NCBI RefSeq assembly: GCF_001693515.2
Contig: NZ_CP042968.1
Coordinates: 5,084,001-5,148,000, forward strand
DNA: 64,000 nt
Reading direction: 5' to 3'
Source: Bradyrhizobium paxllaeri
Lineage (GTDB): Bacteria > Pseudomonadota > Alphaproteobacteria > Rhizobiales > Xanthobacteraceae
In this document: in pieces, positions 52,773-64,000 of the stretch
How positions within the stretch are numbered: position 1 is the stretch's first letter
Layout of the letters: the number at the start of each line of letters is the position of its first letter
The notes under the pieces: generated by a model
What the model saw: only the letters and a program-made list of their open reading frames with translations
Told to the model about the DNA's origin: nothing
The model's database searches: none
Position numbers and translations under genes: made by a program

Positions 52773-53514
52773 AAGCGAATAAAAAACTGACCCGCCCATG
52801 AACAGCGGTGCGTGGTTGTAATGCGAGGCTTCACGCCGCTATCACCGATCTGAAGCGGCAGGTGGATCGAGATCCATAAGCTAAAGAACTTCCAGACGCT
52901 GCCTAGCGCCTGCTATGAGTTCTCAACTTCGCGGCTGTCTGTGCCGAATCTTTGTCGTGAACAGCCGGTAAGCGATCGCGATCATCTGTGGACGCTCCTG
53001 ATGACGATTGCGCCCTCGTCTCGAGCCCATCTGGCACGACAATGCTAGGTGCCGTGACGATCTCGACTGGGCCCTACGGCTGTTGCCGGCGATAGTCGTC
53101 CAGCCATTTTAGCCAGCCCAAGGCAGGATGAGTTCTGAGTCTGTCCTGAAGGTTTGATTGGGCGTCGATCCCGATCGGTTCGATAACCAGCATGAATGTC
53201 GGAAACACCATGATTTGCGAGGGGACGGCAGCACTCGTGGCCGCCTCGGGCGGGCCCGCTCCTCGGCCGCCAAGATTTCTCAGTCGTCCTTGTCGGCCTG
53301 AAAACACCCGACGACCCGTTCCAATGTGAGTAACTAACCTTTCGAAGTGGTTTCTCAGACGCTTGTGTCCCCGTCACTCTGGAACGCGCGAGATTGCATA
53401 TTGGGACGGCATAATTGGTTCAGCCAAGCCACTAAAAGGGATTGAACCTGACGCTGCGTTAGGTTGTAGGAATGAATTATGACCAAACCTACGCCACGCA
53501 AGCCATGGGCACCG
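52773..53514. other. Intergenic, nothing firm
   Basis: A minus frame at 53074-53307 (VFPTFMLVIEPIGIDAQSNL near its middle) is coding-like but unplaced. No promoter was identified. Confidence 0.3.
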
Positions 53515-53759
53515 GTGACCCGCCAGCCGAGGGACTGAAGGGCGGCGACGCCAATGCCAATGCAGTGGCGCTGAAAAGCGTGCTCGACGGCACGCCAAGC
53601 CCATATCGCGGTATCGCGCTTCTCAATGCGGCCGCGGCATTGATCGTGGCCGGCCGTGCCAAAACCTTGAAGGAAGGCGTCGCACTAGGGCAGAAATCGC
53701 TTGGTAGCGGTGCCGCGGCGGCGCGGTTGAAACAACTAATCGCAGTATCCAACGCCTAA
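53515..53759 (+). pseudogene. trpD: trpD C-terminal stump
   Basis: Encodes the last 80 or so residues of anthranilate phosphoribosyltransferase: [39 protein letters not shown] and [10 protein letters not shown]. The catalytic N-terminal three quarters, including the GGxGD PRPP loop, are absent. The codons upstream (from 53472) are unrelated. It is directly followed by trpC, as in the normal trp operon, so the piece came in with trpC. Confidence 0.85.
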
Positions 53760-53775
53760 CAGCCGAGCCTAACCG

Positions 53776-54594
53776 ATGTCCGATATCTTGACGAAGATCA
53801 AAGCCTACAAACGCGGAGAGATCGCAGCCGCCAAGCGCGCCTTGCCACTTTCAGAGGTCGAAACGCTCGCACGGCAGGCCTCGCCGCCGCGGGGTTTTCT
53901 CGCCGCCATCTGCAACAAGCACGCAGCAGATGAATATGCGCTGATCGCCGAGATCAAAAAGGCCTCTCCCACCAAGGGCCTTATCCGGAGCGACTTCGAT
54001 CTGCCCTCGCTAGCCAGGGCCTATGAAGGGGGCGGCGCTGCCTGTCTGTCGGTACTGACGGAAACGCACCTCTTCCAGGGGCACCCTGATTCCACGGTCG
54101 CGGCGCGCGCGGCATCATATCTTCCGGTGCTGCGCAAGGACTTCTTGCTTGACACCTATCAGGTGGCCGAAGCGCGCGCTCAGGGAGCCGACTGCATTCT
54201 GATCATCATGGCGGCGCTTGAAGACGAAGCCGCTCGTGAGATTGAGGCTGCGGCAATGTCTCATGGTATGGATGTGCTGATCGAGATCAACGACGTCGAG
54301 GAGATCGATCGGGCGCTTAAACTCCGCTCGCCGATGATCGGCATCAACAACCGCAACCTGCGCACCTTCGAGACCGCTCTTACGATCAGCGAGGCGCTGG
54401 CGCCGCTCCTACCCAAGAATCGCGTGATCGTCGGCGAAAGCGGTATCCGCTCGCAGGGCGATGTTCTACGTCTTTCGCGGCTTGGCATTTCGACCTTCCT
54501 GGTCGGAGAAAGTCTGATGCGGCAGGCTGATGTGAGGGCGGCGACCCGCGCGCTGCTCTCACGCGAGGCGGCGGCTTCAACCGGAGCGCAGTAA
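53776..54594 (+). CDS. trpC: Indole-3-glycerol phosphate synthase
   Basis: Converts carboxyphenylamino-deoxyribulose phosphate to indole-3-glycerol phosphate in tryptophan synthesis. The 272-residue (beta/alpha)8 enzyme has the family motifs [48 protein letters not shown] and IVGESGI, with catalytic Lys and Glu residues in place. It appears intact. No other complete trp gene accompanies it and the usual downstream moaC is missing, so it is a relocated copy. It starts 16 bp after the trpD stump. Confidence 0.93.
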
Positions 54595-56785: not shown

Positions 56786-58435
56786 TCACGCAGCTCGAAC
56801 GGAGATTGCTGATGCCGACGTCCAATTCCAAGGCAGCAGTTCGTCCAAGCGATGAGCTGGGTAAGCTGCGATGCGGTTGAGTATGTCGGCGAGCCAGACC
56901 TGCGGATCTATGCCGTTCATTTTGGCCGTGACGATCTGGCTATACAGGGCCGCAGCGCGCCGCCCGCCGCGATCAGAGCCGCAGAACAACCAGGCCTTTC
57001 GGCCAAGTGCGATGCCTCTTAGGCCGCGCTCGGCGGCATTGTTCGAGAGACACACCCGCCCGTCCTCGAGGAACAGCGTGAAGCTCGCCCATCGCTTCAG
57101 GATGTAATTGAACGCTTTGGCCAGGTCATGTCCCCGCGACAGCTTGGCGAGCTGTTCGCGCATATAGATCTGGAGGTCCTCGACCAGAGGGCGGCTCAGC
57201 GTCTGCCGTACCTGAAGACGCTCCGTCGGGCTCTTGCCATTGATGGAGCGCTCGATCTCAAACAGCGCATCGATGCGACGCACCACCTCAATTGCGATCG
57301 GAGATAGAGGGATTTCCTTGTTGCCGGCAGCTTTGCGCCGCGCGTTCTCTTCGACGTCGGCCATGGCAAAGAAGGGACGCCGCGCATGGACCCAACACGC
57401 CGCTTCCCGGATCGGTCCAGGATGGCGTCCCGCCAGATAGAGCTGGTTATACCCATCATAGGCATCGGCCTGCAGGATGCCGGCATACCCAGCCAGATGT
57501 GCCTGGGGATGCTCCCCCCTGCGATCGCGTGAGTAATAGAACATCGCCGCCGGTGGGCCTGCGCTGCCAAACGGTCGGTCGTCCCGGACATAGACCCAGC
57601 ACCGGCCCGTGTCAGTCTTGCCTTTGGCCAGCACCGGCACGGTCGTATCATCGGCATGAAGCCGCTCGGCCGCCATCACATGTGCTTCGAGGCGGCGCAG
57701 GAGCGGATCCAGGGACGCGCAGACCGCCCCTACGGCGTCCGCCATGGTCGATAGCGCAATCGGCACGCCCTCCAGAGCGTAGCGCTCGGCTTGGCGGTTC
57801 AACGGCTGGTGCTGGCCAAACTTCTCGAACATGATCATGGCCAACAGGCTCGGTCCGGCCCATCCTCTCGCGATGGCATGGAACGGCGCCGGCGGCTGGC
57901 TGATCTTCTCGCAGTCACGGCAAGAGAACTTCTCCCGCACTGTCTCGACCACCTTCCACTGGCGCGGTACCGCCTCCAGAGTCTGCGTCACGTCCTCGCC
58001 GAGCTTGCGCAGGCGATTGCCGCCGCAGCACTCACACACAGCCGGCGGGTCGATCACCACACGCTCGCGGGGCAGATGCGCGGGGAAGGTTTGGCGCTCG
58101 GCGCGGTTGCGGACAAACTGGCGTACTGTGGTCGTCTTGGCCACGGCCCGTTCTGCCGCCAGTTCGTCTTCGGTGGCATCGGCCTCCAGCTCTTCGAGTG
58201 CCAAGGCCAACTGTTCGATCAGCCGTGCCGAACGTTCCGAACGCTGGCCGTAGATCTGATGCTTTAGCTTGGCGATCTGGAGCTTCTGGTGGGCGATCAG
58301 CGCGCTGTCTTCTGATGCCTTCGCACGGGCTACCGCAAGTTCGGCCGCAATCTCCAAACCCCTGGCACGCTCGGCCGCCAGAGCCTCCTTCAGGGCTGCA
58401 ATATCATCAGGACCAGCGTTGCGATTGGTATCCAT
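56786..58435 (-). CDS. tnpC: IS66 transposase TnpC
   Basis: A 549-residue DDE transposase. It has an N-terminal leucine-rich coiled coil (AALKEALAAERARGLEIAAE), the LKHQIYGQRSERS block, a zinc-binding CECCGGNRLRKLGEDV and CRDCEK, the catalytic core with LHADDTTVPVLAKGK, LQADAYDGYNQLY and the final N-N-A-A-E-R-G-L-R motif, then the short IS66 C-terminal domain. The ATG at 58435 is chosen (MDTNRN). The open frame to 58678 reads into tnpB. Confidence 0.93.
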   Translation of the reverse strand: MDTNRNAGPDDIAALKEALAAERARGLEIAAELAVARAKASEDSALIAHQKLQIAKLKHQIYGQRSERSARLIEQLALALEELEADATEDELAAERAVAKTTTVRQFVRNRAERQTFPAHLPRERVVIDPPAVCECCGGNRLRKLGEDVTQTLEAVPRQWKVVETVREKFSCRDCEKISQPPAPFHAIARGWAGPSLLAMIMFEKFGQHQPLNRQAERYALEGVPIALSTMADAVGAVCASLDPLLRRLEAHVMAAERLHADDTTVPVLAKGKTDTGRCWVYVRDDRPFGSAGPPAAMFYYSRDRRGEHPQAHLAGYAGILQADAYDGYNQLYLAGRHPGPIREAACWVHARRPFFAMADVEENARRKAAGNKEIPLSPIAIEVVRRIDALFEIERSINGKSPTERLQVRQTLSRPLVEDLQIYMREQLAKLSRGHDLAKAFNYILKRWASFTLFLEDGRVCLSNNAAERGLRGIALGRKAWLFCGSDRGGRRAAALYSQIVTAKMNGIDPQVWLADILNRIAAYPAHRLDELLPWNWTSASAISVRAA

Positions 58436-58505
58436 GCGATGCAGTGAATCACAGATCGGATGTGTTGTGACTCCCCAAAAGCTGAAGGGCGGTAGATTTA
58501 TTTGC

Positions 58506-58853
58506 TCAGCCCGCGCTCTGCGGCCGCCAGCTGAGCTGGGGATTTCTCCAGTCGATGCCCTCGAGCATGTAAGCCATTTGCGCCGCCGATATCGACACCG
58601 CACCATCCGACGCCGAAGGCCAGATAAACTTGCCGCGATCCAGCCGCTTGGCATAGAGCGACGTGCCCAACCCATCATGCCAAAGGATCTTGATCAGATC
58701 GCCGCGGCGGCCGCGGAAGATGTAGAGATCGCCCGCATGAGGATCGCGCTTGAGGCTCTCCTGAACCACCAGCGCAAGGCTTTGCATGCCGCGGCGCATG
58801 TCGGTGTGGCCGGTTGCGATCCAGACCCTGACGCCGCTTGGGATCGGGATCAT
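58506..58853 (-). CDS. tnpB: IS66 accessory protein TnpB
   Basis: A 115-residue protein with the family signature VWIATGHTDMRRGMQSLALV and DLYIFRGRRGDLIKILWHDG. Needed for IS66 transposition. Its ATG overlaps the tnpA stop (TAATG). tnpC follows after 70 bp. Confidence 0.93.
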   Translation of the reverse strand: MIPIPSGVRVWIATGHTDMRRGMQSLALVVQESLKRDPHAGDLYIFRGRRGDLIKILWHDGLGTSLYAKRLDRGKFIWPSASDGAVSISAAQMAYMLEGIDWRNPQLSWRPQSAG

Positions 58854-59272
58854 TACCGCCTCAGAAGTTCGAGGACCTGCCGCAGCGCTTCAAGGTCTAC
58901 GTCACGGTCAACGCAAACCCGGCAATCGCCGAGCTCGATCTCGATGATTCCTACCTTCGCGCGCTCCTTGGCTGGCGATGGCCGCGGTTGTGCTACCAAG
59001 GTCGATGCCGCAGATGGCGTCGAAGTGATCTCCACAGGAACAAGCACCGGCGTGGCATCCCCGCCCAGCCGGCCCTCACGCGCCAAACGTCGCCAAGTGA
59101 ACAGCTGGCTCGTCGACAACTCGTTGCGCCGCGCCGTCTCCGACACCAGTCGGGAACCGCCATAACTCTCAGCAACGATCCGCCGCTTCTCGTCCAACGT
59201 CCAACGGCGTCGAGCGCCCGTCGAAACAACTTCCAATCGGGAGACCTTCGAAATAGGCGTATGGTCAGTCAT
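58853..59272 (-). CDS. tnpA: IS66 accessory protein TnpA
   Basis: A 139-residue protein with an N-terminal helix-turn-helix (RRRWTLDEKRRIVAESYGGS, SETARRNELSTSQLFTWRR) and the usual variable middle. First gene of the element. Confidence 0.9.
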   Translation of the reverse strand: MTDHTPISKVSRLEVVSTGARRRWTLDEKRRIVAESYGGSRLVSETARRNELSTSQLFTWRRLAREGRLGGDATPVLVPVEITSTPSAASTLVAQPRPSPAKERAKVGIIEIELGDCRVCVDRDVDLEALRQVLELLRR

Positions 59273-59477: not shown

Positions 59478-59555
59478 GCGCCGGTTTCCGGCCGGGCCGC
59501 GGTCAATCAAAGAAACGTGGTTTTGTTCTGTCCGCACAGATCCCTCGGAGCTGGT

Positions 59556-59699
59556 ATGGCGACAAGATCGCGCAAACGAATAAAGGTCGATTGGGCTGCA
59601 GAAGCTAAGGAGCAGGAACGGCACATTCCGCCACCACAATCGGCGCGGCATCGCAAAAGATTGCCCGGTTCTCGGAGGGGCAATGTGAAAAGGACCTGA
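59556..59699 (+). CDS. Very small basic protein, uncertain
   Basis: A 47-residue frame (MATRSRKRIKVDWAAEAKEQ) preceded by GGAGCTGG. It is rich in Arg and Lys. No family was recognised, and it could be chance. Confidence 0.3.
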   Translation: MATRSRKRIKVDWAAEAKEQERHIPPPQSARHRKRLPGSRRGNVKRT

Positions 59700-60082
59700 C
59701 GGCTCCAGGAAGCTCTTGCTAGTCAATCACACTGAAGGCCAATGCCGGGCCATGTCGGCTTCAAAGATGGAGATGCTGGAGCCGCCTATATGTGTGGCGA
59801 GCCTGCATTGAGAATATCGCAGAAACTCTCCTCATGGTGCGCTTATCGAAATTATCGCGTGTATGCGACAGCCCCTGTCGAGCAAACTAAAGTACGTGAG
59901 CAAGAGCCTACACTTTGAGCCCTCGTGTCACATCCACCCTACCTGAGCCTCATGACATCGCCACAAGCTGCATCCTTTTTGCAGATACCTGACGCAAGGC
60001 GGCTCATCTAACACCATAAAAGTCTAATCGATACCTCACGGGACGTTGATGAGCTCTCATTGCCGCTTCGGGAGGATATACG
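59700..60082. other. Upstream region of the ligase operon
   Basis: No gene. It should contain the promoter of the 60083 operon, but no nod box, tts box or clear -24/-12 site was seen. Confidence 0.35.
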
Positions 60083-61648
60083 GTGCAAGCCAGGGAAAGC
60101 GGAAGACTGATGGTTGATCTCTGCACGCTGATTGAGCGCAACGCGGCGTTCTCTCCCGACAAGCCGGCGATCCATTTCGAGGGCGAGACCTTAAGTTACG
60201 CGAGTTTCAATCAAATGATCGAGCAGGTCGCTCGCGCCCTAAAAAGCCAGCTTGGTGTCGAGAGAGGCGATCGCGTCGCGATCCTTAGTCTTAACCGGCC
60301 TGACCATCTGGTGCTGCTCTATGCCTGCGCGCGGCTCGGCGCAATGCTCGTGCCATTGAATTGGAGGCTTGCGGTCGCTGAGCAGCTCTTCATCCTATCC
60401 GACGCTGACGCCAAGGTGCTGGTGGTCGAGCACGCCTTCGAGGCGCTCCTGCCAGCCCTGGCCGATCAACTACCGGATATCTTTGTCGTTGGCTTGGATT
60501 TTGCGCCTCTTGGCGGAAGCAGATGGGATGGCCTGCTAGACCGAGGGCACGGCGACGGTCGCAATCCGCACACGGACCTGTCCTGTCCGCTTCTGATCGT
60601 CTATACCTCGGGCACCACCGGGCGGCCGAAAGGGGCTGTGCTGAGCCAGGAGACCTTGCTGTGGAATGGGATGATGAGTCAGCACATGCATGGCATCACC
60701 TCGGCAGACCACGTCTTAACAGTGTTGCCGCTGTTCCACGTGGGTGGCCTCAACATCCAGACGACGCCAGCTTTGCATCACGGCGCGACCGTTACGATTC
60801 ACACGCGGTTTACGCCAGAGGCGACGCTCGCTGCGATCGGGCGCGACCGGCCAACGCTGACTGTCCTGGTGCCTGCCACGATTCAAGCCCTGACCGAGCA
60901 TCCCCAGTGGTCGACCACCGACCTCACCTCACTCAGAGCGATTTCCGCCGGCTCAACCATGGTGCCGCAGCACCTGATCGAACGCTTCGTCGCACGCAGC
61001 GTACCAGTGTTGCAGGTGTATGGGTCCACGGAGACGTGCCCAATTGCTGTCTATACGAGACTGGGCGGTGATCTCTCGCGTGAGGGTACGACTGGCCTGC
61101 CCGGCCTTTGCTGCGAAGTGGAAATCATCAATGATGCGGGGAACAAGCAGCCGCCAGGAACCCTGGGCGAGATCGTAGTGCGCGGGCCTAATGTCTTCTG
61201 CGAATATTGGGGCAATCAAGACGCAACGGGCGAGGCGCTGCATAATGGCTGGTATCACACGGGCGACATCGGCCGCCGCGATGCCGATGGATATTTCTGG
61301 GTGCAGGATCGCAAGAAGAATCTGATCATTTCCGGCGGAGAAAACATTTACCCGGCGGAAGTCGAGCGTGTGCTTATGGAGCATCCCGATGTCGCAGAAT
61401 GCGCTGTCATCGGTCGGCCCGATTCGCGCTGGGATGAAGTACCAGTGGCATATGTGATCAGAAGGTCAAGCGCACGGATTGAAGCAGAAGCGCTGAGCGC
61501 GCACATGCAGTCGCAGCTCGCCCGTTTCAAAGTGCCGCGCGAAATCATTTTCACGGAAGAACTGCCGAGAACGGCGCTCGGCAAGATCCAGCATTATATG
61601 CTGAAAGAACTCGATGCGCGATCAACTCGGCAAAGAGACACCAAATAA
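60083..61648 (+). CDS. Acyl-CoA ligase (adenylate-forming enzyme)
   Basis: A 521-residue ANL-superfamily enzyme that activates a carboxylic acid as its adenylate and probably joins it to CoA. Motifs are the P-loop IVYTSGTTGRPKGAV (from Tyr174), QVYGSTET, WYHTGDIGRRDADGYFWVQD RKK, ISGGENIYPAEVE (hinge) and the C-terminal lysine in LPRTALGKIQHY. The GTG at 60083 has GGGAGG at 7 bp, better than the internal ATG at 60110. The substrate cannot be read. The next frame begins inside its last codons, so it leads an operon. Confidence 0.88.
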   Translation: MQARESGRLMVDLCTLIERNAAFSPDKPAIHFEGETLSYASFNQMIEQVARALKSQLGVERGDRVAILSLNRPDHLVLLYACARLGAMLVPLNWRLAVAEQLFILSDADAKVLVVEHAFEALLPALADQLPDIFVVGLDFAPLGGSRWDGLLDRGHGDGRNPHTDLSCPLLIVYTSGTTGRPKGAVLSQETLLWNGMMSQHMHGITSADHVLTVLPLFHVGGLNIQTTPALHHGATVTIHTRFTPEATLAAIGRDRPTLTVLVPATIQALTEHPQWSTTDLTSLRAISAGSTMVPQHLIERFVARSVPVLQVYGSTETCPIAVYTRLGGDLSREGTTGLPGLCCEVEIINDAGNKQPPGTLGEIVVRGPNVFCEYWGNQDATGEALHNGWYHTGDIGRRDADGYFWVQDRKKNLIISGGENIYPAEVERVLMEHPDVAECAVIGRPDSRWDEVPVAYVIRRSSARIEAEALSAHMQSQLARFKVPREIIFTEELPRTALGKIQHYMLKELDARSTRQRDTK

Positions 61649-61817
61649 GTATCGCGGATTGGGCGCTGCCAATATTCGCCTGCTGCAGGCGGTCTTCCGT
61701 CTCAAGCTCAATGAGGTCGTTTCGATCAAAATGTTCTACATGAATGCGCTGCCGCCCGTTCACGTAGTGCGGGACTGCGCTTCCGTCCAATATGCCAAGT
61801 GCCACGGAGCTCGTTGA
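61614..61817 (+). CDS. 67-codon frame coupled to both neighbours
   Basis: It starts within the last 35 bases of the ligase gene and stops in TGATG overlap with the following ATP-grasp gene. The peptide (MRDQLGKETPNKYRGLGAAN at the start, ALPPVHVVRDCASVQYAKCH at the end) has a helical, basic middle and two cysteines near the end. No family was recognised. Possible roles are a precursor peptide for the ligase downstream, a small partner, or merely a coupling leader. The ribosome site for its own start is weak. Confidence 0.4.
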   Translation: MRDQLGKETPNKYRGLGAANIRLLQAVFRLKLNEVVSIKMFYMNALPPVHVVRDCASVQYAKCHGAR

Positions 61818-63133
61818 TGCCGCGAATCCTAATTATGAATGCCGGTACCGCCCAAATGTCCGGTGCCGATCTAACGGCACTCCAACTTTCGCTTGCGGCC
61901 AAGTCGGCTTGGCGCTCCGTATGGTTTGCGCAACCGGGCGACCTAATTGTCTCTCCGGTAGCGATCCCGACTGACCTGCTACAATATGTTGGTGCGACAT
62001 TAAGGTTCGACCCATCGACTGTCTTGGTGGTCGTGCCGGAAAACGCGCACGAGATGGGTGTCCTTAGTGATTTCACTCTACAGTCCAACATAATTGTTGA
62101 ACAGATCCGCCGCCACATTTGTGACAAAACACATTGGAAACTATATGCTTGCTACGCTACTGAAGGCGTCGCGCGCCTAGCGGCGATGCTCGGCGTAATG
62201 CAGTACGGGGACGAGTTCGCTCTGCAGCGGGGTCCTGATTTATTGAACCGCAAGAGCCACTTCCGTCAACTGGCAACAAGTACCATGCTTCCGTTGCCCA
62301 GTGGATGCATAGCAACAACTTCAGAAGAACTGTTCAGAGCGGTCAACTCGCTAAGGCTTGAAACCGGCAGCGTTATTGTAAAGTTGGACAATGGCGCCGG
62401 CGGGGTCGGAAATGTCATATTGACCGGCAAGGAGAGCGCTCCACTACCTGGGGCAAGAGAGACCCGGCGGGTCCTTTGGCCGTCGTTTGATCCTGATCAA
62501 CTTTGGTCTGAGCTGACAACCGCCTCATGTAAAATAGTGGTCGTCGAGTCATACCACGTGGCTCGTTCTCTCTTCTATCTGGAGTTTGAAATCGAGGAAA
62601 ATGGTTCCATCGCATACGTCAATAGCGGCAACATACGTCTGCGTCGAAGCGAAGATCCGTCCGAGAGAGCTCTCGTCTGGACTGGACTAGAACTTCCAAG
62701 CGACCTAAGCAATGAGCAGTACTCGACCGCTTACGAGCACGCCTATCGGTTTGTGGAGCTTGCGCGGACCTTGGGATACCGCGGAATGATCAACATAGAT
62801 GCCATTTTTTCGATCGACGGGAGGCTGCTCTTTAATGAAGCGAACGGTCGCTGGGGCGGGGGCTCGGTACTGCACAGCATTGCTGACCGGATGCTAGGAT
62901 CCGACTATTCCCATTCTCACGTGATTTCATCCGTGCGGAACGTCCGACTAAACTCCCTCCGAGAGGCGGTTGATTGTTTTGTCGATGAAGGATTGCTATT
63001 TGATAGCATACAGAAGGAAGGCGTTATTCCGCTTGCCGCCGATCAAGACGCAGGTACGGTCGAGTGCCTCGTGATCGCGCGCGATAGGCTCGTGGGCCGC
63101 AATTTCGAGCATCGATTATTGAGGATAGTCTGA
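61817..63133 (+). CDS. PreATP-grasp / PGM1-like peptide ligase
   Basis: A 438-residue protein. The N-terminal domain (RSVWFAQPGDLIVSPVAIPT, LLQYVGATLRF, STVLVVVPENAHEMG) matches my memory of the preATP-grasp domain found with PGM1, the pheganomycin peptide ligase. The ATP-grasp core follows, with VIVKLDNGAGGVGNVIL, VVVESYHVARSLFYLEFEIE and the metal-binding YRGMINIDAIFSIDGRLLFN EANGRWGGGS. ATP-grasp ligases of this type join an amino or carboxyl component through an acyl phosphate. The ATG at 61817 has ACGGAG at 7 bp. The function in this genus is unknown. Confidence 0.75.
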   Translation: MPRILIMNAGTAQMSGADLTALQLSLAAKSAWRSVWFAQPGDLIVSPVAIPTDLLQYVGATLRFDPSTVLVVVPENAHEMGVLSDFTLQSNIIVEQIRRHICDKTHWKLYACYATEGVARLAAMLGVMQYGDEFALQRGPDLLNRKSHFRQLATSTMLPLPSGCIATTSEELFRAVNSLRLETGSVIVKLDNGAGGVGNVILTGKESAPLPGARETRRVLWPSFDPDQLWSELTTASCKIVVVESYHVARSLFYLEFEIEENGSIAYVNSGNIRLRRSEDPSERALVWTGLELPSDLSNEQYSTAYEHAYRFVELARTLGYRGMINIDAIFSIDGRLLFNEANGRWGGGSVLHSIADRMLGSDYSHSHVISSVRNVRLNSLREAVDCFVDEGLLFDSIQKEGVIPLAADQDAGTVECLVIARDRLVGRNFEHRLLRIV

Positions 63134-63149
63134 TCTGGACCACTGCCCC

Positions 63150-63425
63150 ATGTCCACTATTCAAGATACTTTGTTCGGTCCATTTGCTTGTTCCAACTTG
63201 AACTACAGCCCTATTCCCAACCATCTGCTGGACCCCAAAGGCGCTTTGCGTAATGCGAGGTCAATGACGCGGGCTCCGGCGACGTTGACGGCACGCGATC
63301 GCTGGGTCAGAGCGCTAGCGTGCGCGCGAGCGTCGTCATTATTGCTCATCGTAATGCCCGGGCTTCTCCGGCAGGACGAATTTGCCCGGCATACCGAACC
63401 AGCACAATCAACGAATGTGCGATAG
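63150..63425 (+). CDS. Possible small gene after the ATP-grasp ligase
   Basis: A 91-codon frame beginning 17 bp after the ligase stop (MSTIQDTLFGPFACSNLNYS). Only the first 35 or so residues look coding, and the rest is Ala/Arg-rich. No ribosome site is seen. It could be a degraded precursor peptide or chance. Confidence 0.25.
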   Translation: MSTIQDTLFGPFACSNLNYSPIPNHLLDPKGALRNARSMTRAPATLTARDRWVRALACARASSLLLIVMPGLLRQDEFARHTEPAQSTNVR

Positions 63426-63447
63426 CCCTGAGCGACAGGGCAATGGG

Positions 63448-63461
63448 TTGAGCCAGAACAA
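63448..63461. promoter_or_regulatory. FixK-like sequence shared with hemN upstream
   Basis: TTGAGCCAGAACAA within GGGTTGAGCCAGAACAAAG. The same 19 bases with one change lie before hemN. No gene starts directly downstream, so this may be the remnant of a promoter. Confidence 0.3.
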
Positions 63462-63584
63462 AGCTGTTCCCCTATGGCCACGGGCGACGAAGAGAATCTT
63501 TGTGCGCCGCTACGGGCGCATCCAGTTAGAGCATCCGGCCCGCATCAATATACCTCATCCCGACGCCATTGCAGGCCGTGCCAT

Positions 63585-64000
63585 CTAGCTAGCCGACCGC
63601 ACGCGAGCGGCATGGTCTTCGACTATCCGGCGGTTCACACCGTCGTATTTTGAACAAAAGTAGACGAGTGACCGACGCTCCCCCGCGTGCACCTTCCTTA
63701 CCTCATGCCAGAACCTACATGTTGTGATAAGCACTGTCCCAAAGTGTGGACGAAACACCTGCCGTTTGCGGTCGGTTGGATACACGACGAACTCACCGCC
63801 CTCGAACTCTGTCGTGAGCTGAACAATTACAGAATATTCGAAGTCGGGGTCGCTCTCAGCATCTAAATGGATACCAACGAAGGACCCAGGCGGCATGCGA
63901 TGCATTTGGCATCGGCGAATCACGTACTCCGATGACGCTCCGAAGATCCTTCTGAGCGCAGAGACCCGCTCGTTTCTTTCCAGTAGTTTGATGATCTGCG
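63585..64000 (-). CDS. 2-Oxoglutarate/Fe(II) oxygenase, 5' end outside the window
   Basis: The frame stays open to the window edge. The visible part is the C-terminal double-stranded beta-helix of a prolyl-4-hydroxylase-type oxygenase: GIHLDAESDPDFEYSVIVQL (metal His and Asp as HxD), EFEGGEFVVYPTDRKRQVFR, TTCRFWHEVRKV (distal His) and GERRSLVYFCSK (Arg for 2-oxoglutarate). Such enzymes hydroxylate amino-acid side chains or small molecules. It is convergent with the ligase operon. The GTG at 63923 is internal. Codons upstream (IIKLLERNERVSALRRIF) continue the protein. Confidence 0.8.
   Translation of the reverse strand, partial: QIIKLLERNERVSALRRIFGASSEYVIRRCQMHRMPPGSFVGIHLDAESDPDFEYSVIVQLTTEFEGGEFVVYPTDRKRQVFRPHFGTVLITTCRFWHEVRKVHAGERRSLVYFCSKYDGVNRRIVEDHAARVRSAS

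Follow-up and report, generated by a model that had tools for sequence, protein, structure and literature searches.

What does a peptide ligase of the PGM1 type do in the symbiosis region of a Bradyrhizobium genome? The question is raised by the end of a 64,000-nucleotide stretch of Bradyrhizobium paxllaeri (the window; C1:5084001-5148000 in a single-contig genome of 8.38 Mb), where an acyl-CoA ligase of the ANL family, a PGM1-type ligase and a 2-oxoglutarate (2OG)/Fe(II) oxygenase lie side by side. A preliminary description of this DNA proposed a peptide-type metabolite cluster, with one of two small open frames as the gene for the peptide acceptor. The analysis reported here, which also covered a further 18 kb past the window end (L002), supports the metabolite cluster and its 2OG oxygenase and discards both frames. 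A third partner was found just outside the window, a gene encoding a putative haem-oxygenase-like diiron oxidase (HDO) fused to a GFA domain. Together, the ligase and these oxidases probably form a symbiosis-region pathway that makes a small peptide independently of ribosomes; it would be of the same HDO and ATP-grasp kind as mangotoxin, and its product would be made in nodules.

The ligase gene (61817..63133, plus strand; 438 aa) matches the preATP-grasp family PF18604 in a Pfam profile search with an E value of 1.9e-23 and 83.3 bits, against a cut-off of 27.5. Its closest solved chain is 8ynd/8ynq, named 'ATP-grasp peptide ligase' (8ynd, E 3.7e-66 over residues 29-423), and pheganomycin PGM1 is also matched (3wvq, E 2e-33); no paper was found for structure code 8ynd in an open full-text search. 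A similarity search of a named genome collection returned 54 loci with the ligase, every one titled Bradyrhizobium, the nearest being B. lablabi (L003) with 98% ligase identity. Fifty of these contain a full-length ligase and four (L053-L056) only its first 26-42 residues; the DNA around several of the 50 ends early, and the counts of partner genes given below cover the fetched DNA. Residues K189, D328, E341, N343 and R345 are invariant in all 50 orthologues, and we take the first four to be the ATP-grasp lysine and the Asp/Glu/Asn metal ligands. Changes at first, second and third codon positions number 33/17/69 and 30/15/83 in two relatives, a clear third-position excess. The entire genome of the window strain gives a single ligase match at E values up to 0.001. 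As judged from these matches, the protein is a PGM1-type ligase, as first proposed, and not a carbamoyl-phosphate-like enzyme.

Convergent with the ligase is the 2OG/Fe(II) oxygenase, whose 3' part (63585..63998, minus strand) runs past the window end; the whole gene encodes 225 aa (L002:1585-2262, corresponding to C1:5147585-5148262). The in-window part matches PF13640 with an E value of 4e-12, and the facial triad H132, D134 and H186, along with the 2OG-binding R196, is intact in 39 of 39 orthologues, confirming the original call. The nearest PDB chain is 6n1f (E 4.1e-61), beyond which the PDB search gave chance matches only and no BesD-type chain, and an anti-phage library returned generic 2OG models only. 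Third-position excess was observed in both relatives tested. The oxygenase was found in five of 398 genomes of the phylum, three of the five belonging to Bradyrhizobium.

Upstream of the 2OG gene on its strand, the fusion gene (L002:2300-3577, C1:5148300-5149577, minus strand) encodes 425 aa. The C-terminal GFA domain matches PF04828 with 48.2 bits (cut-off 24.3) and retains its zinc cysteines, with C308 and C310 present in 37 of 37 alignment rows covering them, C328, C330, C333 and C372 in 39 of 39, and C375 in 38 of 39. Codon-position changes of 35/16/73 and 58/37/79 in two relatives again show third-position excess. The N-terminal ~260 residues have no Pfam match. Seven positions there, E132, H157, E208, H239, D244, E247 and H250, are invariant in the 37 rows that cover the domain (two of the 39 do not), and H136 is variable (23 H, 13 Y, 1 F). 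HDO enzymes bind their metals with three histidines and three carboxylates, as described in the available text of PMC13108848. Residues E132, H157, E208, H239, D244 and H250 would fit such a site, the choice among the carboxylates being provisional. The iron ligands given for mangotoxin MboA in the accessible part of PMC13185094 (Glu86, His89, Glu143, His172, Asp176 and His181) follow the same E-H-E-H-D-H order with a different spacing of the first pair. Furthermore, local hhalign of the domain only against nine PF14518-type proteins places the elements WDE-G, H--LF, E and YF--H-D in register. The invariant ligands and this weak profile match, rather than a good structural model, are suggestive, not proof, of an HDO. 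Directly before the likely fusion ATG lies a CT-dinucleotide run (L002:3490-3530) whose length varies between L005, L007 and L013; an upstream start could therefore be phase-variable.

The ligase and the two oxidases are kept together in related loci. Among the 50 full-ligase loci, a 2OG open reading frame (ORF) is present in 39 and a fusion ORF in 39 (truncated in two, L020 and L021). All three genes occur together across ligase identities of 68% (L046) to 91% (L005), sometimes with insertions between them, and ligase and fusion together up to 97% (G415). To these loci was added a survey of 195 evenly drawn genomes of the genus, with a fusion threshold of E <= 1e-60; for nodA, 16 weak matches of 124 were dropped. 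The ligase was found in 64 genomes, the fusion in 62 and a strong nodA in 108. All 62 fusion genomes have a ligase match, and the ligases without a fusion at E 1e-60 are those of G337 and of G454, which has only a 43% paralogue and no nodA. Strong nodA accompanies the ligase in 63 of 64 genomes, compared with 108 of 195 overall (Fisher p 2e-20, kinship uncorrected), and 63 of the 108 nodA-bearing genomes carry a ligase match. The set is thus a feature of symbiotic Bradyrhizobium members; in the window strain a strong nodA match lies at C1:5173109, ~26 kb from the ligase. Among 297 genomes drawn evenly from the order, the ligase appeared in three, all Bradyrhizobium, so it is rare outside the genus at that sensitivity. 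Co-location and co-inheritance of the fusion with the ATP-grasp ligase hold in themselves; calling the pair an HDO and ATP-grasp set depends on the HDO assignment.

Beyond the fusion lie fixC, fixA, nifA and fixR, named from their translations; Pfam agrees for the flavin adenine dinucleotide (FAD) protein and the electron-transfer flavoprotein (ETF)-type protein, and nifA and fixR are named from translations alone. The genes fixA, nifA and fixR follow the fusion in many of the related loci. A leucine-rich repeat protein (L002:10563-11765; PF12799, E 1.1e-15) stands beside fixR.

The promoter of this oxidase operon was searched in 38 regions, each made up of the 1300 bases that precede the fusion's conserved HPFA motif. 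The pair sought was TGT-N10-ACA, the NifA upstream activator sequence (UAS), located 60-130 bases before TGG[CT][AG][CT]-N5-TTGC, the -24/-12 element of sigma54 promoters, both in a loosened form of the consensus. This pair occurs in 20 of 38 regions and in two of 38 on the opposite strand, and single-base shuffles of the regions gave a mean of 0.01 and a maximum of 1. Once loci that share 95% identity in the ligase are merged, it is retained in 13 of 23 groups. In a wider scan, 19 of 23 pairs placed before the fusion gene have a UAS-to-sigma54 spacing of 78-87, and in an alignment of 17 loci both elements stand out against a diverged leader. These motifs indicate a NifA/sigma54-type promoter for the oxidase operon in much of the genus, from which expression under NifA would be expected. 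A second UAS/sigma54-like pair was seen in nine loci on the ligase strand, 2.5-3.6 kb upstream of the island trpD (L024:1348, L025:779, L027:910, L030:1343, L031:3297, L032:301, L033:4012, L045:4554 and L050:776).

The acyl-CoA ligase of the proposed cluster is a sound ANL enzyme with a different standing. Its gene (60083..61648, plus strand; 521 aa) begins with GTG; an alternative ATG lies nine codons further, near which several orthologous ORFs begin, for example those of L020 and L035 (511 aa). The profiles PF00501 (E 1.6e-85) and PF13193 (E 9.7e-22) bear out the family, the protein scores 477.5 bits against NF004837 (cut-off 476), and its nearest solved chains are 8weu, named fatty-acyl-CoA synthase, and 8wev, named feruloyl-CoA synthetase (both E 1.7e-105). 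Both relatives compared show third-position excess in this gene. With 480 aa as the minimum length, 29 of the 50 ligase loci contain an ANL ORF and 21 do not, although L007, counted among the latter, has one of 451 aa; in several loci without a full ANL, a short remnant leads directly towards the ligase. Because the full-size ORF is missing from so many ligase loci, the ANL is accessory, not core.

Similar combinations were found through similarity searches of plasmids, five of 19 plasmid records with a ligase match being examined, which is not an unbiased survey. The plasmid of Rhizobium leguminosarum WSM1689 (L057) resembles the Bradyrhizobium set in having a PGM1-like ligase (41.8%), a GFA protein (47%) and a PF13640 2OG oxygenase (30%); it differs in that the GFA protein is stand-alone and in encoding a PF10014 dioxygenase, a desaturase, an O-methyltransferase and a protein with weak, sub-cut-off ATP-grasp matches. 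A Kocuria plasmid combines a PF10014 2OG oxygenase, a PGM1-like ligase and GFA, and a Rhodococcus plasmid a PGM1-like ligase, GFA and an annotated 2OG-Fe dioxygenase. In Paraburkholderia, a PF14518 protein accompanies a PGM1-like ligase, an annotated 2OG-Fe dioxygenase, a beta-hydroxylase-type protein and a major facilitator superfamily (MFS) transporter. The Gr 12/7 plasmid record has neither an HDO nor a 2OG oxygenase annotated beside its ligase. The pairing of a PGM1-like ligase with iron oxygenases, in many cases along with GFA, is thus seen repeatedly and in two phyla. Within the genus survey, G480 and G454 (L083, L084) carry a cluster in which the PGM1-like ligase of 43% identity is accompanied by a desaturase, a PF13640 2OG oxygenase, an O-methyltransferase-like protein and a homologue of the HDO-like domain that stands alone. 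One more protein there has no Pfam match and resembles a second ATP-grasp by eye. The stand-alone homologue is 36% identical to the fusion domain over 244 positions (E 4e-45) and has the same ligand residues. Its match to the CADD family TIGR04305 (E 0.12) and a BesA NCBIfam match (E 0.066) are by themselves not evidence.

This recurrence bears on the possibility that the genes merely adjoin one another, without a common function, in an island that holds many copies of metabolic genes (trpC/trpD and an acyl-CoA carboxylase, named from translation), with the ligase serving a housekeeping or catabolic role. In its favour are a trpC copy, a trpD-like remnant and a flavin reductase upstream, and the frequent loss of the full-size ANL. 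The explanation is nevertheless unlikely, given the co-location of ligase and oxidases across the identities listed above and the reappearance of GFA or HDO partners beside such ligases in clusters of Rhizobium, Rhodococcus, Kocuria and Paraburkholderia.

Clusters with an HDO and an ATP-grasp ligase are an established kind, of which the available text of PMC13185094 reports at least 25. As described there, the mangotoxin mbo cluster encodes the HDO MboA, the reductase MboB, the ATP-grasp ligases MboC and MboD and the deiminase MboE (PMC13185094). The Bradyrhizobium set shares with mbo an ATP-grasp peptide ligase beside an HDO or HDO-like protein. As far as that text describes mbo, the Bradyrhizobium set is unlike it in having one ligase, of the PGM1 type, an HDO-like domain that is fused to GFA and lacks a Pfam match, an extra 2OG oxygenase, a location in the symbiosis region and, in part of the genus, a NifA-type promoter. 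Two other systems illustrate how such a ligase may be employed. PGM1 acts on a small core peptide, to which it couples a non-proteinogenic amino acid (PMC8939145, accessible part), and the ketomemicin cluster with its ATP-grasp ligase KtmD is ribosome- and nonribosomal peptide synthetase (NRPS)-independent (PMC11943689, accessible part). The present ligase belongs by sequence to the preATP-grasp family of PGM1; KtmD is an ATP-grasp peptide ligase by that paper's description. Unlike these systems, insofar as the excerpts describe them, the Bradyrhizobium set has no adjacent precursor gene and no aldolase/amidinotransferase set, with oxidases instead. The absence of a nearby precursor gene makes the ribosome-free mode of KtmD likelier than that of PGM1.

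In the preferred ribosome-independent pathway, the PGM1-type ligase would use ATP to join two amino-acid-like building blocks, as expected from its family. The HDO-like/GFA fusion and the 2OG oxygenase would oxidise a side chain, either in a building block or in the joined peptide, through desaturation, hydroxylation or cleavage of a C-C bond. Where present, the ANL may activate an acyl or aryl group or attach it, a step that the many lineages with a lost ANL do without. Given the NifA/sigma54-type promoter in much of the genus, the product would be expected under low oxygen in nodules, and a small antimetabolite or host-acting peptide is its likeliest kind.

A more specific version draws on the bes cluster, in which BesA is an ATP-grasp enzyme and BesD and BesE are 2OG enzymes. 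The combination of HDO, ATP-grasp and 2OG proteins is common to both; the 2OG oxygenase here is unlike bes in finding no BesD-type chain, and to our knowledge a GFA fusion is not part of the bes cluster. BesC, an HDO, releases formaldehyde according to the available text of PMC13108848. By analogy, the fusion might be a self-contained carbon-cutting oxidase: its HDO-like domain would cleave an amino-acid side chain with release of formaldehyde, which the fused GFA domain would capture, and the unsaturated amino acid would pass to the PGM1-type ligase, yielding a di- or tripeptide antimetabolite of nitrogen-fixing bacteroids under NifA. We regard this scheme as speculative and its chance of being right as small.

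Several results weigh against the ribosome-independent pathway or its parts. Of the two profiles proposed for checking the 438-residue ligase, preATP-grasp matched and PGM1_C (PF18105) did not reach its cut-off (E 8.9e-4; 19.2 bits, cut-off 22.5). A lone ligase would yield only a dipeptide-like product unless a second ligase is encoded elsewhere. As for the HDO, the local hhalign score is 20.7 with p 0.054, a score reached by two of 100 column shuffles (the reversed control scores 13.1); global mode found nothing (p 0.68), nor did the whole fusion against one protein. The PDB profile search of the fusion is credible for the GFA domain only, with none for the HDO-like domain, and the stand-alone homologue has no PDB profile match. 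The AlphaFold model of the fusion has a mean predicted local distance difference test score of 44.8, too poor for a fold search. Stops interrupt the matched stretch in 12 of 62 fusion genomes, among them G315, where the match falls into two pieces, and the fusion of G409 is incomplete; some of these stops may precede the true start, where the match runs into a poorly conserved stretch, so that not all need be broken. The ligase itself is broken in G364 and G409. The promoter pair is absent from 18 of 38 regions, 12 of which hold the -24/-12-like element alone, that of the window genome included; the window genome has a sigma54-like site and no UAS within 1300 bases, and for want of the latter lacks the full NifA/sigma54 signature. 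Finally, among the ORFs listed around the window copy, none was recognised as an exporter or as a self-resistance gene, though no systematic search was made.

Alternatively, the substrate of the ligase may be a ribosomal peptide whose gene lies in another part of the genome or is a missed short frame, since PGM1 itself uses a small core peptide (PMC8939145, accessible part). A candidate is a conserved short frame upstream of the ANL (conserved stretch 59517-59918), of which the window retains a frameshifted remnant (59742..59918, plus strand). It is open for 75-94 codons in L027, L029 and L004, and a 521-base query over the stretch matches 51 of 54 loci. Codon-position changes of 404/357/682 (34 loci, 57 pairs) show third-position excess, and an overlapping set gives 516/389/416 (44 loci, 75 pairs), without bias. 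Its Cys/His pattern recalls GcrA; Pfam gives no match, and the identity is not claimed. A search for hidden precursors clustered 3191 small ORFs, with 41 families in at least six loci; among the 25 listed, this frame is the widest with third-position excess (34 loci), the others being very short or in few loci. Its coding signal is mixed, and it is only a putative member of the pathway. The frame is broken in the window, where the ligase is intact, no consistent conserved small frame occurs between promoter and fusion gene among the alignment rows listed, and KtmD serves a ribosome-independent pathway in the accessible part of PMC11943689. A ribosomal substrate from elsewhere is therefore rather improbable.

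The two frames adjacent to the ligase fare worse. The 67-codon frame (61614..61817, plus strand) is indeed open, with an overlap with the end of the ANL gene and a TGATG junction to the ligase start, as the preliminary description reported. However, in 12 of 13 close relatives, with 79-88% identical DNA, gaps there (one-base indels among them) break the reading frame, and differences fall on all codon positions, for example 10/9/5 in L010, whose ligase gives 33/17/69. When the DNA before the ligase start was read in 53 of 54 loci (L047, misplaced, was excluded), only L003, at 99% DNA identity, had a similar unbroken frame. The 91-codon frame (63150..63425, plus strand) reaches only 55-68% identity when aligned with 12 relatives; gaps are numerous, and the changes are spread evenly over the three codon positions. 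Profile searches gave no family for the former and no convincing family for the latter. Unconserved, broken by indels and without third-position bias, both are judged chance open frames, not genes, and the peptide-acceptor role proposed for either falls with them; for the 67-codon frame, this is the refuting outcome that the preliminary description itself had named. A pheganomycin-type ligation of a non-standard amino acid onto a ribosomal peptide from either frame, suggested by the open frames, the TGATG junction and the homology to PGM1, is refuted by this non-conservation and highly improbable.

Further features surround the set. The island trpC (named from translation) and a 95-codon trpD-like remnant (PF00591) occupy 53472-54594 of the window; a second trpC elsewhere is 73% identical, and related loci contain a trpD-like ORF in 46 cases and a trpC-like one in 15. 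An IS66-type insertion element (named from translation; 56786-59272) lies between the flavin-reductase gene and the ANL, and a similar set is found at L002:14280-16726. In Bradyrhizobium sp. Ai1a-2, ligase copies 79% identical to that of the window are found on two contigs (L016 and L017); the region may therefore be duplicated there.

The set was not found described in the open full-text literature under rhizobial terms, a search that leaves subscription papers and supplements outside and is weak evidence of novelty. If the HDO assignment is true, the fusion with GFA would add a new architecture to the diiron oxidases. The formaldehyde-releasing scheme, if true, would give a nodule-specific natural product unlike rhizobitoxine, made without NRPS or precursor peptide. 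The ligase is carried by about a third of the sampled genus genomes, and the loci seen often adjoin fixA and nifA. If its peptide is made in nodules, the chemistry of the legume symbiosis would have a component that has so far not been described.

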